From the NCBI RefSeq assembly GCF_900156785.1, contig NZ_FTOP01000014.1, positions 1 to 64,000 of the forward strand: DNA of 64,000 nucleotides, read 5' to 3'. The position numbers and the translations under genes are program-made. Under the pieces are notes generated by a model. That model had not been told where the DNA came from. It saw only the letters and a list, made by a program, of their open reading frames with translations, and made no database searches. This DNA is from Belliella pelovolcani (lineage in GTDB: Bacteria > Bacteroidota > Bacteroidia > Cytophagales > Cyclobacteriaceae). Of the stretch, positions 16,090 to 49,656 are shown one piece after another. Within the stretch, counting starts at the first letter, position 1; every line of letters starts with the position of its first letter.

Positions 16090-16180
16090 CAAGATAGCTT
16101 GCATTGCTAAATTGTTTGAACTTGTCAAATGGAAATTTTGGAAATCTGAAATGTGTGGAATATAAATCATCTTGTTAAGA

Positions 16181-16288
16181 ATTTATATTTCCGAAAGAGG
16201 ATATTCTCGTTCGGCAGGAATTGGCACCTTGGATTTTCCAGGTTGCCAGAGGGTCTTAGAGCCTGTCTCTCGCCTCTTCTTTATAAAT
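16181..16288 (-). ncRNA. SAM-I (S-box) riboswitch upstream of metY
   Basis: Read on the minus strand, all S-box landmarks are present in order. P1 is ATTTATA (16288-16282) closing with TATAAAT (16187-16181). P2 is AGAGGCGAGAG... with CTCT...CCTCT. Then come the invariant GGCAACC, P3 (CCTGGA...TCCAAGG), GGTGCCAATTCC, and P4 (CCGAA...TTCGG). A third strand, ATTTATA at 16167-16161, can pair with the 3' side of P1 in place of the 5' side, a plausible alternative fold for the expression platform. No T-rich terminator follows. The platform is therefore unresolved. Confidence 0.92.
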
Positions 16289-16317
16289 CCCAACACCTAA
16301 AAAGTGAAAGGATACTG

Positions 16318-43503: not shown

Positions 43504-44555
43504 TGGCTTTTGACTTAGAAAAACTTTTACGCCCACATATCAATAAGATCAAACCCTATTCTTCAGCAAGGGATGAATATTCAGGCAAGGCAGGCATCTT
43601 TCTAGATGCCAATGAAAACCCATACGGGTCTCTTGCAGCAGGAAATTTCAATCGCTATCCTGACCCCTATCAGCTCGATATCAAAATGAAGCTAGCTGAG
43701 GTTAAGGATGTGCCTGCCAATCAGATTTTCTTAGGCAATGGCAGTGATGAAGCTATTGATTTGCTCATGCGGGCATTTTGCAATCCAGGTCAAGATAATA
43801 TCATCTTACTTCCACCTACTTATGGCATGTACGAAGTAAGTGCTGGGATCAATGATATCGCTATCAAAAGAGTCAATCTTAGCACTGATTATCAACTGAG
43901 ACCAGAAGCAATTCTAGCTGCTGTGGATGAACGTACCAAAATCATCTTCATCTGCTCACCAAACAACCCAAGCGGTAATAAAGTGAGAAGGTCGGATATC
44001 TATGAAGTCTTGAATAACTTCAATGGTATCGTGGTGGTAGACGAGGCTTATATCGACTTCAGCGATGAACCTAGCTTCACTACTGAGCTGACTAATTATC
44101 CTAACCTACTGGTGATGCAGACCTTTTCCAAAGCTTGGGGATTAGCTTCTTTGAGGTTGGGGATGGCTTATGCTTCCAAAGAAATCATTAAAATCCTCAA
44201 TCTGATCAAGCCTCCATACAATATCTCTGGACTTACCCAAGAAAAGGTACTAGAAGCTTTGGATAATGCAAGTGCAATTCAAAGAATAGTTGAAGATACG
44301 CTAGCAGAAAGAGCGTTCCTTAAAACTGAACTAGAAAAATTCCCTTTTGTATCTACAATCTATCCTTCTCACGCGAATTTTCTTCTGATCAAGACCGAGG
44401 GAGCTAGAAAAATTTACGAATACTTAATCGAACAAACCATCATCATCAGAGATAGATCCAAGGTAGTCCTTTGTGAAGACTGTCTGAGAATTTCTGTAGG
44501 AACAAGAAATGAAAACGAAGCATTATTAAAAGCTCTAGCGCAATACAAGCCATGA
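43503..44555 (+). CDS. hisC: Histidinol-phosphate aminotransferase
   Basis: A PLP fold-I aminotransferase (350 residues). Markers: [10 protein letters not shown] near the start, [28 protein letters not shown], and the PLP lysine in [14 protein letters not shown]. The gene has a 1-base overlap with hisD and a 4-base overlap with hisB. Confidence 0.95.
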
Positions 44556-45646
44556 AGAAAGCATTATTTATTGATCGAGATGGCACCATCATCATCGAGC
44601 CCCCTACTGATTTCCAAGTTGACAGCTTGGAGAAATTAGAATTCTACCCCAAAGCATTGAGCAATCTCAGGAAAATAGCTGAGGAATGTGATTTTGAACT
44701 GATCATGGTCACCAATCAAGATGGCTTAGGTACGGATTCTTTTCCAGAAGACACCTTTTGGCCAGCCCAAAACAAAATGATGAAGACCCTCGAAGGAGAA
44801 GGCATCATTTTTTCGGCTGTGCATATCGATAAGTCATTTGAACACGAAAACTTACCTACTCGTAAACCAGGGATCGGTATGCTCACAGCTTATCAAAACG
44901 GCGACTATGACTTAGCCAATTCCTATGTGATCGGAGATAGGAAAACAGATGTGCAACTCGCAAAAAACCTCGGAACCAAATCCATTTTCATTGGAGAAGC
45001 TTTTGGAGAAGCAGACTTCTGCACTACTTCTTGGGATGAAATCTATGAATTCCTCAGACTTCCAGCGAGAAAAGCATCAGTAGATAGAAAAACTTCAGAG
45101 ACTGACATTAAAATCAGCCTCAATTTGGATGGAACAGGCAAGTGCAATATCAGCACAGGTTTGCATTTCTTTGACCACATGCTAGAGCAACTGGGCAAGC
45201 ATGGCGGTACTGATTTGGATATTCAAGTCAAAGGGGACTTGCACATCGACGAGCATCATACGATTGAAGATACAGCCTTGGCACTTGGTGAAGCTTATTT
45301 AAAGGCGCTTGGAGACAAAAAGGGCATCTATCGTTATGGTTTCCTTTTGCCGATGGACGATGTCTTGGCACAATGTGCAATAGACTTTGGAGGCCGTCCT
45401 TGGATGGTTTGGGAAGCAGAATTCAAAAGAGAAAAAATTGGAGAAATGCCTACGGAGATGTTCTACCATTTCTTCAAATCCTTCTCCGACACAGCCAAAT
45501 GTAACCTGAATATCAAAGCCGAAGGTTCAAACGAACACCACAAAATCGAAGCAATTTTCAAATCCATGGCAAGAGCCATCAAAATGGCCGTGAAGAGAGA
45601 TCTAAATGCCCTCAATCAACTTCCGAGTACGAAAGGGGTTTTATAG
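44552..45646 (+). CDS. hisB: Bifunctional histidinol-phosphatase / imidazoleglycerol-phosphate dehydratase
   Basis: 364 residues. The N-terminal HAD domain starts [11 protein letters not shown] (catalytic Asp pair) and carries [11 protein letters not shown]. The C-terminal dehydratase (from about residue 172) shows [30 protein letters not shown] and [14 protein letters not shown] overlap with hisC. No hisH, hisA, hisF or hisI follows. Confidence 0.95.
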
Positions 45647-45662
45647 AATTAAAAACTTATAT

Positions 45663-45696
45663 AAAGCGAGGCAAATTAATTTGTCTCGCTTTTTTT
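45663..45696 (+). terminator. Strong intrinsic terminator after hisB
   Basis: AAAGCGAGGCAAA and TTTGTCTCGCTTT form a 13-bp stem with one mismatch and a four-base loop, followed by a T run. It closes hisGDCB, so later his genes are elsewhere or were separated. Confidence 0.9.
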
Positions 45697-45759
45697 GCTG
45701 ATTGATCAAAAACTATATCGGTCGTCACTACGTGACTTCTGAATAGCATGGCTACCTCA

Positions 45760-45976
45760 TTGTCAAGGATTGAAATCCATGACTAATATATCGGTCGTTC
45801 CTACGGAGCTGATACGGAAACTCACTCTTATCTTAAGAATTATCCCAGACTTTCCAGTGCCAGCGGCCCGTCCGACCGGGCATCCGGGCGGGCACGACCG
45901 AAATCTTAACGGTGGGTTTCAACACACTTAGCCACGAAACTTGCGACTCGGTGAAAGTCTCGTAGGGATGGACGAT
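45760..45976. repeat. Dispersed 217-bp structured repeat, copy 1
   Basis: This 217-bp block is nearly identical to 48239-48455. Landmarks: the palindrome GTCAaGGATT-GA-AATCCATGAC at the left end (one mismatch); CGGTCGT and its partner ACGACCG; a GC-rich hairpin GCCCGTCCG...CGGGCGGGC in the centre; and TTGAAATCC near one end against GGGTTTCAA near the other, imperfect terminal inverted repeats. It has no coding capacity and is probably a small nonautonomous mobile or REP-like element. Part of it (ATATCGGTCGT) is repeated again just to the left, near 45714. Confidence 0.85.
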
Positions 45977-45999
45977 TATTGCTCTAAAAAAATCAATCT

Positions 46000-46782
46000 T
46001 CACTTTCTGCTAAATTCCAATTCACCGCTCCTTCTCCAATATTTCAAAAACAAATAAACACAAATCAAAACAGAGATCCCAATAATGAAGAAAGTCCATT
46101 TTCCATAAATCATATAACTTTCCAAGTTGTCTATGGAAGTATCAATTTTCAAAAACTCCCCAATTAATATACTCGTCAGGTTGGCTACAGAATGTAACAG
46201 AATTACTAAACCCAAACTATTTGTCTTGATAAATATATAACCAAAAACCAGTCCCATCAATAAAGCTGTAATTATCTGAGCAGGTTGAATATGAATAATG
46301 GCAAATAAAATACTAGAAATAGTCAAGGCTAAATTACTTCCATATTTATCTCTAAGACCATTAAGGATAATACCCCGAAATATCAATTCCTCTACTATTG
46401 GACCAATAAAAACAGCTCCAAATGAGAAGATTGAAAATAATTCCATTGCCATACCTTTGTTTTTATTCTGAAATAAAAGGTTAATCAAATAGTTCAGAGG
46501 ATGACTAATAGCCAGAATCATGGTAACAATAAATAACAAAGAATAAGCAATCCATCGGATGCTAGGTAACCTAAAACTAAAATCAAAAGGCCACTTTCTT
46601 TTGTTCCTTAACCAAGCATAAACAACTATTGTTATTCCATAAATAATAAAAAGTGTAAATCCATAAATTGAATCTTCAATACCAAAAAACAAAAAAGGCA
46701 TACAAATTATTGCTGAAATAAAGAAAGGAACCACGATTAATTCAGCACTATGCAAGATTTTAGAAGGAAAATTATTTTTCAT
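46000..46782 (-). CDS. CPBP (Abi/CAAX-like) intramembrane metalloprotease
   Basis: 260 residues with about eight membrane helices. The CPBP motifs are all visible: EELIFRG (Glu131, Glu132, Arg136), FAIIH (His164) and HSVAN (His197, Asn201). Members process prenylated proteins in eukaryotes. In bacteria many lie beside bacteriocin genes, where they act as immunity or processing factors. Here the gene lies 80 bases downstream of a double-glycine peptide gene. The protease role is inferred. Confidence 0.85.
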   Translation of the reverse strand: MKNNFPSKILHSAELIVVPFFISAIICMPFLFFGIEDSIYGFTLFIIYGITIVVYAWLRNKRKWPFDFSFRLPSIRWIAYSLLFIVTMILAISHPLNYLINLLFQNKNKGMAMELFSIFSFGAVFIGPIVEELIFRGIILNGLRDKYGSNLALTISSILFAIIHIQPAQIITALLMGLVFGYIFIKTNSLGLVILLHSVANLTSILIGEFLKIDTSIDNLESYMIYGKWTFFIIGISVLICVYLFLKYWRRSGELEFSRK

Positions 46783-46806
46783 TTATGATTTTTTTCGATA
46801 AGAGAA

Positions 46807-46836
46807 TGTGCGCACCGTAAAGCACCGATGCGCACA
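46807..46836 (-). promoter_or_regulatory. Intercistronic hairpin between peptide gene and CPBP gene
   Basis: TGTGCGCA and TGCGCACA form a perfect eight-base stem with a 14-base loop containing CCG/CGG-like pairing. No T run follows. It may lower CPBP expression or stabilise the peptide mRNA, as in other two-gene bacteriocin operons. GC-rich against a very AT-rich background. Confidence 0.55.
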
Positions 46837-46862
46837 ATTATGAATTTCTGAATTGTTTTCAA

Positions 46863-47048
46863 TTAATCTACTAATTGATTCCAAATCCAAATGCCTGCAT
46901 TTGCAATGGCCTTACCTCCATTTACAACTGCTTCTGCTGTATAAATAATAGGATTGTTAGTTCCAGTCCAAGAATATTCATAATAATCAACTTTCCCTCC
47001 ATAAATCTCCATCAATTCATTTTTGTTTAATTCCTTAAACTTTTCCAT
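46863..47048 (-). CDS. Double-glycine leader peptide (bacteriocin- or pheromone-like precursor)
   Basis: A 61-residue precursor. Its leader MEKFKELNKNELMEIYGG matches the class II bacteriocin pattern (hydrophobic positions spaced 4 and 7, then Gly-Gly at 17-18). Cleavage after Gly18 would give a 43-residue peptide, rich in Tyr at the start (DYYEY) with a hydrophobic Gly/Ala-rich core (VVNGGKAIANAGIWIW) and C-terminal Asp. No Cys, so not a lantibiotic or microcin with disulfides. No exporter (peptidase-C39 ABC transporter) is visible nearby. Confidence 0.75.
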   Translation of the reverse strand: MEKFKELNKNELMEIYGGKVDYYEYSWTGTNNPIIYTAEAVVNGGKAIANAGIWIWNQLVD

Positions 47049-47124
47049 AATCTAAATAAATTTTCATTCTTTCCCAATCTTTTCCGGGCATTGAGAACTC
47101 CCAATCTCTCACAAGCAAATCGAA

Positions 47125-47478
47125 TTAGCTAGCGTGTCTTTTTACTGATTGATCATATATCAAAGAAATGATAGTTCCGTCTAAAAATTTAGACGCTGGA
47201 AAATAATTTGAAATTTTTCCAGCAGAGATATTCCGAACTTCATCTGATCCAAGAACCTTCAGAGAAAACACCACTGACACTCCGTTGCAACTCTCGTAAA
47301 CAAATGAATTTGAGCGCTTTGAAAATCTAATCTCAATCCCTTCGTCTCTTAAATCATCTAGCATCAAATACAGCTTCGCTCTACTCACCCCCAATCTCTC
47401 CGCAAATTCCTCCGGACTTCCTGTCCGCTGCTCTCTTACTAGCTTGTTTAGCAGCTGATAAAAATGAGTAATGTTTAT
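47125..47478 (-). CDS. Small HTH regulator with a non-standard or lost start codon
   Basis: The conserved frame extends beyond the first usable GTG (47394) back to ATA at 47478: INITHFYQLLNKLVREQ...FAERLGVSRAKLYLMLDDLRDEGIEIRFSKRSNSFVY. The HTH sits in EEFAERLGVSRAKLYLMLDDL (helix-turn-helix of the deoR/type-11 style). Relatives begin with ATG at the ATA position, so either ATA (a rare start) is used or the gene is broken. Translation from the GTG would lose the first HTH helix. It lies directly upstream of the peptide gene, on the same strand, and is probably its regulator. Confidence 0.65.
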   Translation of the reverse strand: MNITHFYQLLNKLVREQRTGSPEEFAERLGVSRAKLYLMLDDLRDEGIEIRFSKRSNSFVYESCNGVSVVFSLKVLGSDEVRNISAGKISNYFPASKFLDGTIISLIYDQSVKRHAS

Positions 47479-47509
47479 CTCACTTAAAAAAATTAAATTT
47501 CAACACCTA

Positions 47510-47843
47510 CTAATCCCCTTCCAATTCTTTTATCAATTGCCTAATTTCTTTATCTGTAATTGATGACCTCTCTGATTTAGTAAAAATAGCCACTAAAAAC
47601 ACAGTAGATTCAGAATAAACAACATAGGTCACTAGTCTAGCAGAGCCTGACTTTCCTTTATTCATACTTGAAATTTGGAACTCTAACTTTGTAGCAGTTT
47701 TTATAAACGAGAACACCTAAAGATGGATTTTCTAAAAGTTTAACGGCTATTTTGTCCAGGTCCTTCAAGATTGAAGGGTACTTCTTTTTAAGTTTCTTCA
47801 ATTCTCTCCCGAAACTTTTCGTAAAAGCTAACTTATAAGTCAT
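47510..47843 (-). pseudogene. RelE-family toxin, frameshifted
   Basis: The first part (MTYKLAFTKSFGRELKKLKKKYP... to NCYKVRV) runs into a stop at about 47658. The rest, ISSMNKGKSGSARLVTYVVY...TKSERSSITDKEI, is in the next frame. Removing one base at about 47677-47681 (GTTCCAAAT to GTTCAAAT) gives a continuous 110-residue RelE-like protein with the typical K-G-K-S-G-x-R stretch. The toxin is probably dead. Its ATG overlaps the antitoxin stop by 11 bases. Confidence 0.8.
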
Positions 47844-48060
47844 CTTTCATTTCTGAAAACATTGAGTAAGTCTTATATTTCACCTTTCCAACCTCCATAT
47901 CTTTGGCTTCTAAATAGCCTTTCTTAATATTATCAAGGGTTTTTTCCTCATCACTAAAACCCTCAGAAATAACAAGAAAATTTATTTTCATTGCTTCAAG
48001 CATTGATTTCACAAGATCAAGCTTCGACTTATCTTTTGTTTCGATTAATAATTATTCCAT
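47833..48060 (-). pseudogene. Antitoxin of the RelE-like toxin with a stop at codon 3
   Basis: Frame from ATG 48060: Met-Glu-stop, then LLIETKDKSKLDLVKSMLEAMKINF... to the charged C terminus ...SMFSEMKDDL, in one frame for 75 codons. The pattern (IETKDKSKLDLVKSMLEAMKI) matches small Bacteroidota RelB-like antitoxins. The codon-3 TAA could have been AAA or similar. Translation from an internal ATG would lose only the first residues. It overlaps the toxin start. Confidence 0.7.
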
Positions 48061-48238
48061 AATACTAATTTACAAATTATAAATGATTATTATTTGAAAA
48101 GAAAAGCTAAAAATTTCAAAAAAAAAGCAACGTTCAAATCCGGCGAATAGAATTTTTTCAGCAGTTTTTTAATTTGCTGATTGATAATTAAACACATCCC
48201 TTACCCCTAGCAGAATTCATGGTATTATGGCCAATTTC
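48061..48238. other. Non-coding spacer left of the second 217-bp repeat
   Basis: 178 AT-rich bases with no credible gene. It contains GTTCAAATCC (48132), which resembles a tRNA T-loop but lacks the flanking stem, so it is not a tRNA. Confidence 0.4.
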
Positions 48239-48455
48239 TTGTCATGGATTGAAATCCATGACTAATACATCGGTCACTCCTACGGAACTGATACGGAAAC
48301 TCACTCTTATCTTAAGAAATATCCCAGACTTTCCAGTACCAGCGGCCCGTCCGACCGGGCATCCGGGCGGGCACGACCGACATCATAACGGTGGGTTTCA
48401 ACACACTGAGCCACTAAACTTTCGATGAAGGGAAAGTCCCATAGGGATGGACGAT
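48239..48455. repeat. Dispersed 217-bp structured repeat, copy 2
   Basis: Same length and orientation as the copy at 45760-45976, with most bases identical, including the whole central GC hairpin. Here the left hairpin is perfect (GTCATGGATT-GA-AATCCATGAC), and near the right end GGGAAAGTCCC is an extra small palindrome. The two copies enclose the accessory genes 46000-48060. Confidence 0.85.
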
Positions 48456-48558: not shown

Positions 48559-49635
48559 TTACCGCTGAATAATAGCACCTCTTAATCCATCACTATTCAA
48601 TAGCCCTCCAAATTCTTGGATGACTGGCATAGGCACATTATTCTCAAGTGCACCTTCCACCACAGCTTCTACAAACAAATCATAATCAGCAGCAGATACC
48701 AATCCAGTCATTCTCGAATTGACAGCTGGATTGTGAGCGTCTGCCATATTCAGCCCTGTATATTCAATATTAACCGAACCGATTGCCTGCGCTAAAAACT
48801 CAGAGAAATCTGTCACCAAAGTGGTGAAACCAGATAAATTACCTGCTCCCACTTCTGCTAGCAAAACAGAGAAATAAGGCTGTAGATCATCATACTTTCC
48901 TCCTTCATTGGTTGCAATTACCAATACTGTACTGGTCACCACTGCTTCCAGAGGTGCATATCCAGCCTCGACTAATCTTACTGGTTCTCCATCATCAGCT
49001 ACATTGATCAAGCCTGAACCTCCCAATCTAGTGTAAAGGTCTAAGCCTTCATTGTCTGCTCGCTGTACGATAGGCTCTCTTACTGATTCTAACAATTGAC
49101 CTACAGGACCGATCACCTCACTTGAAGTAATATTTGCTTGAGCAGCACCTTCTACCACAGCTTGCACAAAAAGGTCGTAATCTGCGTTGTTGATTCTGCC
49201 ATTCATACGACTATTTCTCACCGGGTCGTGAGCTGCTTCCATGTCTAAGCCAGTGTATTGAAAATTCTTTGCCCCTGTAGCCTCAGCTAAAAATTCCGTG
49301 AAATCTAATACCAAAGTACTAAAACCAGATGTCTCCCCTCTACCTACTTCATTTAGTAAAACAGAAAAATACGGTTGCAATGCATCATATTTTCCACCCT
49401 CGTTTTCTGCTATTGTCAAAACTGTATTGGTCACTACAGTTCTAAGATTCAAGAAACCTTGCTCTATGGTCTGTCCTGGATTAAGTGGGTCAGCGACTCT
49501 CGCTTCTCCACCAAGCTGAACAGCATAAAACGAATCATCCATCATCATCGGCCCATCATCATCTCTATTACAGGAGGTGAAAACCAGGGCGGCTATTACC
49601 ATTGATCCGGTTAGCCATACATTTAACTTTTTCAT
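48559..49635 (-). CDS. Lipoprotein with two tandem truncated-hemoglobin-like domains
   Basis: 358 residues from ATG 49635, with lipobox VFTSC (Cys22). Two homologous halves, residues about 37-170 and 200-335, share the pattern LGG, then VV(T)xTVLxIAxNEGGKYDxLQPYFSVLLxEVG, the FTEFLAEATG / FSEFLAQAIG helix and YTGLDMEAAHDP / YTGLNMADAHNP, then ADYDLFVxAVVEGA. The helix-plus-His pattern is that of group I truncated hemoglobins, with His136 and His301 in the proximal position. Secretion as a lipoprotein and duplication are both unusual for this family. Heme binding is inferred. Confidence 0.7.
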   Translation of the reverse strand: MKKLNVWLTGSMVIAALVFTSCNRDDDGPMMMDDSFYAVQLGGEARVADPLNPGQTIEQGFLNLRTVVTNTVLTIAENEGGKYDALQPYFSVLLNEVGRGETSGFSTLVLDFTEFLAEATGAKNFQYTGLDMEAAHDPVRNSRMNGRINNADYDLFVQAVVEGAAQANITSSEVIGPVGQLLESVREPIVQRADNEGLDLYTRLGGSGLINVADDGEPVRLVEAGYAPLEAVVTSTVLVIATNEGGKYDDLQPYFSVLLAEVGAGNLSGFTTLVTDFSEFLAQAIGSVNIEYTGLNMADAHNPAVNSRMTGLVSAADYDLFVEAVVEGALENNVPMPVIQEFGGLLNSDGLRGAIIQR

Positions 49636-49656
49636 AATCATAAAATTTAGTGTTAG

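Follow-up and report, generated by a model that had tools for sequence, protein, structure and literature searches.

An island beside hisB in Belliella pelovolcani is probably an exporter-less remnant of a class II-like bacteriocin system

An island lying between hisB and a lipoprotein gene of Belliella pelovolcani is probably (we estimate a probability of roughly 0.78) an exporter-less remnant derived by deletion from a class II-like bacteriocin island that moves between related species. The stretch analyzed, hereafter the window, comprises the 64,000 nucleotides at positions 1 to 64,000 of contig NZ_FTOP01000014.1 (C22 of G000, a draft genome of 4.1 Mb) of this member of the Bacteroidota. 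Between two direct repeats, the island carries genes for a double-glycine (GG) peptide, a CPBP membrane protease and a helix-turn-helix (HTH) protein, as well as the pieces of a toxin gene. Judged from its sequence, the window strain is most likely immune to a class II-like bacteriocin that it does not produce. Strains that retain bacteriocin immunity but have no exporter are a long-standing puzzle in the study of bacterial competition, known above all from Gram-positive bacteria.

The peptide precursor scores above the cut-offs of both Pfam Bacteriocin_IIc (29.0 versus 27.1) and NCBIfam bacteriocin_sig (21.9 versus 15.7), confirming the GG peptide (GG at 17-18) recognized in the original prediction, which had been made from the sequence alone, and it has the double-glycine leader of class II bacteriocin precursors. 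It contains no cysteine among its 61 residues and is the only GG peptide of the island, which therefore lacks the two adjacent precursors of class IIb systems. The CPBP gene is equally real (Pfam Rce1-like, 4.5e-22); its product contains the sequence EELIFR, which we take to be the EExxxR motif of CPBP proteases, and dN/dS is ~0.31 for the window and G001 copies. By analogy, the CPBP protein is likely the immunity protein of the producer, as CPBP proteins are counted among immunity proteins elsewhere (PMC4860687). Among 59 genomes, the 61-residue peptide is present in three, all of them Belliella (G000, G001, and G003), the window peptide being 98 to 100% identical to the other two. The window and G003 share the same peptide gene (186/186 nucleotides) and a CPBP gene with 99.5% nucleotide identity. 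A weak peptide match (42% over 31 residues) was seen in a Bacteroidetes metagenome-assembled genome.

The comparison of the island among relatives, proposed with the original prediction, shows that the site can be empty, hold a single repeat, carry a remnant or a complete system, or be expanded. Across seven Belliella genomes, the hisB-lipoprotein site holds 0, 0, 1, 2, 2, 3, and 12 copies of the repeat. In G001 (B. aquatica, NZ_BMFD01000004), which has two repeats, the genes from hisB to the lipoprotein gene are CPBP, CPBP, peptide, HTH, an ATP-binding cassette (ABC) exporter with a C39 peptidase (716 aa) and HlyD (391 aa), i.e., HlyD, exporter, HTH, leader, peptide and CPBP in the direction of transcription. 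G003, with three repeats, encodes a peptide-CPBP unit, two further CPBP proteins, a pair of GG peptides, HTH, exporter and HlyD; its exporter passes the NCBIfam bacteriocin_ABC cut-off (536.7 versus 523.85), and the exporter of the relatives has its own C39 peptidase. A complete system with one repeat also occurs at a different site in G004 (contig C43). Since exporter and HlyD stand at the same site in G001 and G003 and at another in G004, the window system is read as a remnant. The “minimal peptide system” originally proposed thus keeps its assignment to a peptide system and loses the word minimal. Nor are its genes “four unrelated small loci”, as in G001 HTH, leader, peptide and CPBP follow HlyD and exporter side by side on the same strand. 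A class II-like bacteriocin protected by CPBP proteins is consistent with the family signatures, with the exporter and with the CPBP genes.

The remaining states are found in the other genomes. Only 48 and 63 bp, free of repeats and genes, separate hisB from the lipoprotein gene in G004 and G006, respectively. G007 retains one repeat and a leader remnant; we rejected its interpretation as a virgin site with one repeat, the leader remnant beside hisB being a scar. At the other extreme, the 12 repeats of G005, several of them in rows with a period of ~255 bp, share the site with further genes, among them one for a CPBP protein and one for an aspartyl-protease-like protein. In G002 the site is obscured by a contig break: a repeat array of 13 pieces on L047, including two partial ones, and hisB lie at separate contig ends; this array is likely at the same hisB-lipoprotein site.

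HlyD and the C39-peptidase ABC exporter of class II double-glycine systems are absent from the island, bearing out the earlier statement that no exporter lies nearby. The HTH gene matches that of G003 from codon 11 onward and not upstream; it lacks the start codon and first 10 codons of the G003 gene, so that the predicted HTH gene exists in a damaged form that had gone unnoticed. The supposed dying toxin-antitoxin pair stands for the toxin, of which two pieces persist in different frames: 47510-47716 matches RelE (3.1e-5) and 47658-47843 matches ParE (5.1e-4), both under Pfam's own cut-offs. The antitoxin is unproven: the 59-aa open reading frame (ORF) upstream has no Pfam or NCBIfam match and a weak PADLOC match (PDC-M12B, 7.1e-5) to the N-terminal part of the profile. 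PADLOC gave weak matches only across the island, and the toxin-antitoxin stretch matched no plasmid and, among the loci compared at that stage, nothing other than the window and the end of the repeat. In the G004 system (L080:9579-10111), two small ORFs that by eye resemble an intact toxin-antitoxin pair lie between the repeat and the peptide genes, a place resembling that of the broken toxin in the window.

These observations suggest the following model. In complete relatives, HlyD, the C39-peptidase ABC exporter and the HTH protein are encoded in a row. Genes for one to three double-glycine peptides come next, frequently preceded by a conserved leader, and CPBP genes are usually present as well. 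The ABC protein would cut the peptide at the GG site and export it, while the CPBP protein would shield the producer. With HlyD, exporter and the start of the HTH gene missing and peptide and CPBP left, the window peptide is most likely silent or unexported, in a cell that is still immune to peptide-making relatives. The island probably enters and leaves by homologous recombination, via the his genes on one side and between the hairpin-rich repeats.

Movement by recombination is supported by a tract of high identity and by the mosaic repeat of G007. In aligned 1-kb bins between 22 and 58 kb (restricted to the part of G003 that was fetched, some bins being unaligned), the window and G003 are 94 to 100% identical at 44-47.46 kb versus 66 to 81% elsewhere. 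At 100-bp resolution, identity rises within hisC from 82% (44101-44200) to at least 96% from 44201, and all bins up to 47100 reach 96 to 100% except 45601-45700 at the end of hisB (84%); hisB itself is 97.9% identical. Within this stretch of G003, the first 750 bp (hisC) match G001 at 92 to 96%, after which identity falls to ~80% with G001 and climbs to 98% with the window. This switch in hisC suggests that the hisC-hisB-peptide tract likely passed from a window-like strain into G003. For G003 versus G001, synonymous divergence (dS) is 0.169 for the exporter, 0.104 for HlyD and 0.127 for CPBP, versus 0.77, 0.42, 0.96, and 1.64 for four genes right of the island. These genes replaced hisB (dS of 2.18) as the yardstick, the hisB gene of G003 being itself imported. 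Moreover, the exporter bins of this pair are 96 to 98% identical and most neighbouring bins 77 to 90%, some bins on the his side and farther away reaching 91 to 95%. The low island dS and the high exporter identity therefore indicate, at the level of sequence, that the island spread after the species split. The exporter has a dN/dS of ~0.075.

The two equal-length repeats in the same orientation reported from the window are genuine (217 nt each, 91% identity, E = 8.9e-84), and their similarity reaches farther left, to 283 nt at 84%. Apart from these copies, a whole-genome search (E ≤ 0.001) returned a single further piece of 74 nt. The unit strings hairpins together in a row and has inverted ends, CCCTACGGGACTT ... 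AAGTCCCGTAGGG. The gain and loss of genes via the repeats, as initially proposed, is supported by sites with 0, 1, 2, 3, and 12 copies and by the single copy of G007, which is a mosaic: its left 116 nt are closest to the first copy of G005 (94.8%), its middle 65 nt to the first copy of G001 (93.8%) and its right part to the last copies of G003 (83%) and G001 (80%). A crossover between first and last repeats would be expected to yield such a mosaic, although a single exchange among the copies compared does not account for its middle part. In both window repeats, one hairpin has a 26-nt insertion, which also occurs in one G002 copy and in the G004 copy, and not in the G003 copies.

On visual comparison, RAYT transposase genes at G005:C10 and G002:C32 are flanked by hairpins of matching types and order, reminiscent of the REPtrons and TIRtrons described in PMC3733652 and as expected of RAYT-associated repetitive extragenic palindromes (REPs). 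In G002 (L057, C32:402000-419000), a RAYT gene lies within a series of hairpin pieces spaced ~2 kb apart. Unlike REPtrons and TIRtrons, the Belliella repeat is a low-copy, multi-hairpin unit of ~250 bp that forms head-to-tail arrays in G002 and G005; its terminal hairpin has 0 to 24 copies per Belliella genome (up to 3 mismatches), short of the high copy number of REPs. Compared by eye with section 6 of that paper, it carries neither the GTAG tag nor the 8- to 9-bp CGTC type, and we rejected its assignment to a known REP class.

The search for GG peptides beside CPBP genes and this HTH family also extended beyond Belliella. A profile of the HTH protein, searched in a family sample of 390 genomes from 84 genera (E up to 1e-8), matched in 139 genomes and 51 genera, many matches being weak and short. 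We examined 20 loci from 14 other genera, out of the 25 loci outside Belliella among the best-scoring 30. HlyD occurs in 18 of these 20 loci, the exporter in 18 and both in 17 (12 genera); a GG peptide follows within 3.5 kb downstream in 18, close peptide pairs occur in 10, a CPBP relative in 11 and all four kinds in 9. The peptides are diverse and often paired, and some loci have several CPBP genes. The GG pattern was found in 34 ORFs on the gene strand of these stretches versus one on the opposite strand. In one locus (L129, G098:C4:42500-56500), two peptides and two CPBP genes stand without an exporter beside a 90-nt piece of HlyD, and it alone among the 20 carries the hairpin repeat (73.7% over 266 columns); to judge from its gene content, it is a parallel remnant from another genus in the same state as the window. 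Elsewhere, the exporter is a short piece (L139) or split across two frames (L130), and L132 runs to a contig end.

A conserved leader, composed of ~85 nt upstream and the first 17 nt of the peptide gene, recurs before other peptides. A profile built from the window leader gave 41 matches in the Belliella loci and the 20 other loci, of which 27 are followed by a GG ORF, 25 of them at the same offset; the offset is partly built into the model, which contains the start codon, while the GG motif lies outside it. The 14 matches without a GG ORF include the remnants beside hisB in G002, G005, and G007, plus other genes. In G005 (L052:6883-7836), the aspartyl-protease-like protein comes right after the leader, in place of a GG peptide. 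With a covariance model, the leader was detected in 31 of the 390 genomes and 15 of the 84 genera (once in the genome of the window); 21 of the 31 had contributed sequences to the model and 10 lie beyond those. Six further stretches from six genomes have 9 leader sites, 6 of which open a GG-leader ORF at the same offset. This leader may serve as a simple probe for such peptides.

The leader likely forms a 6-bp RNA hairpin (CTCAAT-GCCCGGAAAAG-ATTGGG). From 24 hand-picked sequences of the 41, RNAalifold predicted this single hairpin, 4 of whose 6 pairs show changes on both sides. Eight double-changed cells were observed, a count as high in 1 of 500 shuffles; the covariation score was as high in 2 of 500 and the number of further pair types in 45 of 500. 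Shifting the partner by two columns likewise left double changes in 4 pairs, but the share of pairing cells then dropped from 93% to 31%. We call the hairpin likely and unproven because shared ancestry inflates these covariation figures. G-U pairs occupy 27 of the ~134 paired cells, from which we infer an RNA rather than a DNA palindrome. An alternative hairpin (columns 30-35 with 40-45) was unsupported, 205 of 500 shuffles reaching as many paired cells.

Several points weigh against the interpretation of the island as a remnant. The loss is deduced from relatives, and peptide and CPBP could have come without an exporter. Their intact frames do not prove use because the stretch was recently exchanged, as the identity of the peptide gene with that of G003 indicates. 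CPBP similarity was found in just 11 of the 20 loci of other genera, and L148 has the HTH gene only. The genome is a draft in 44 contigs, and its other C39 exporter might accept the peptide. The search for this exporter elsewhere in the genome located a sole C39 gene, within a grasp-with-spasm RiPP operon on the short contig C9 (L084, 6,594 bases; TIGR04192, 243.3 versus 230; TIGR04193, 196.2 versus 175). With this exporter and with intact peptide and CPBP frames, the peptide might still be made and exported, the window being a working minimal bacteriocin; however, the C9 exporter falls below the bacteriocin_ABC cut-off (386.4 versus 523.85) and adjoins its own maturases, and the HTH gene is damaged, which makes this unlikely.

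Still less probable is a role of the peptide as a signal, with CPBP as its processing protease and HTH as a receptor or regulator. The peptide and HTH genes do adjoin, and CPBP proteins are known to process some peptides, but the relatives' exporter carries its own C39 peptidase, the HTH profile gives only weak BirA-like and other N-terminal matches, and diverse, often paired peptides with several CPBP genes are rather what toxins with immunity would show. That the window-like lineage was the apparent donor of the hisC-hisB-peptide tract to G003 could also mean that the peptide-CPBP unit originated at this place with no exporter, G001 and G003 being later fusions. We hold this to be the least probable, as the HTH remnant starts at codon 11, complete gene rows have this 3' end and this leader, and in 17 of the 20 loci from other genera HlyD and exporter precede the HTH gene. 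An exporter-less remnant remains our preferred explanation.

By analogy, the pneumococcal blp locus is the closest working model. According to PMC4860687, its peptides are thought to be type IIb, CAAX proteases are counted among the immunity genes, blpA is full length in a fraction of 0.249 of genomes and many strains are without an intact exporter. Both systems combine GG-leader peptides, CAAX proteases and an ABC exporter accompanied by a second protein, and in both the peptide and immunity genes vary. Belliella differs in its Gram-negative host, the HlyD accessory protein, an HTH gene replacing the response regulator BlpR, the conserved leader with its hairpin and the large hairpin repeats. 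The bacteroidetocins of the Bacteroidota have a GG leader of 15 to 16 aa and a double-glycine-peptidase ABC exporter, and PMC6671954 finds no obvious immunity gene for them, whereas CPBP genes are frequent in Belliella-type loci. In contrast to bacteroidetocins, which have at least two cysteines, the window peptide is cysteine-free. Genes for a transmembrane protein and, mostly, a thiol oxidoreductase lie beside bacteroidetocin genes; among the island ORFs a thiol oxidoreductase had no Pfam match, and the transmembrane protein of the island (CPBP) is of another kind. Among the literature matches listed, consulted in part and with subscription journals thinly covered, there was no report of such a system in Belliella or its relatives. 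More tentatively, and with considerable doubt, one may envisage that the Belliella family has a bacteriocin platform, so far undescribed, that moves horizontally. Its 5' part (the RNA leader with its covarying hairpin and the peptide leader) would stay constant and be joined to changing peptide cores and CPBP immunity genes, with RAYT-type repeat arrays acting in Belliella as crossover sites that swap or delete modules, the window being a resulting immune non-producer.

Table 1. Layout of the island and of the adjoining recombination tract in the window
Feature	Coordinates	Strand	Remarks
3' end of hisC and whole hisB	44201..45646	+	left portion of the recombination tract common to the window and G003
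Direct repeat copy 1, multi-hairpin element	45694..45976	+	217-nt core 45760-45976
CPBP (Rce1-like) membrane protease, 260 aa, likely immunity protein	46000..46782	-	frame intact; Pfam 4.5e-22
Double-glycine peptide precursor, 61 aa, GG at 17-18	46863..47048	-	Pfam and NCBIfam
Conserved leader: 85 nt 5' of the peptide gene and first 17 nt of the gene	47032..47133	-	
HTH gene minus first 10 codons, junction 47457/47458	47125..47457	-	
RelE/ParE-like toxin gene broken across two frames (47658-47843, 47510-47716)	47510..47843	-	
59-aa ORF 5' of the toxin, possible antitoxin	47833..48012	-	basis: position alone
Direct repeat copy 2	48173..48455	+	217-nt core 48239-48455

No Rfam family matched inside the island at the gathering score, and three weak matches near 48.5 kb (E up to 1) were dismissed as chance. 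Farther away, a S-adenosylmethionine (SAM) riboswitch (RF00162, 81.3 bits) is located at 16180-16289 on the minus strand. The lipoprotein next to the island (360 aa, 48559-49641, minus strand) has two similar-looking halves, and the G004 and G006 proteins have 193 aa.

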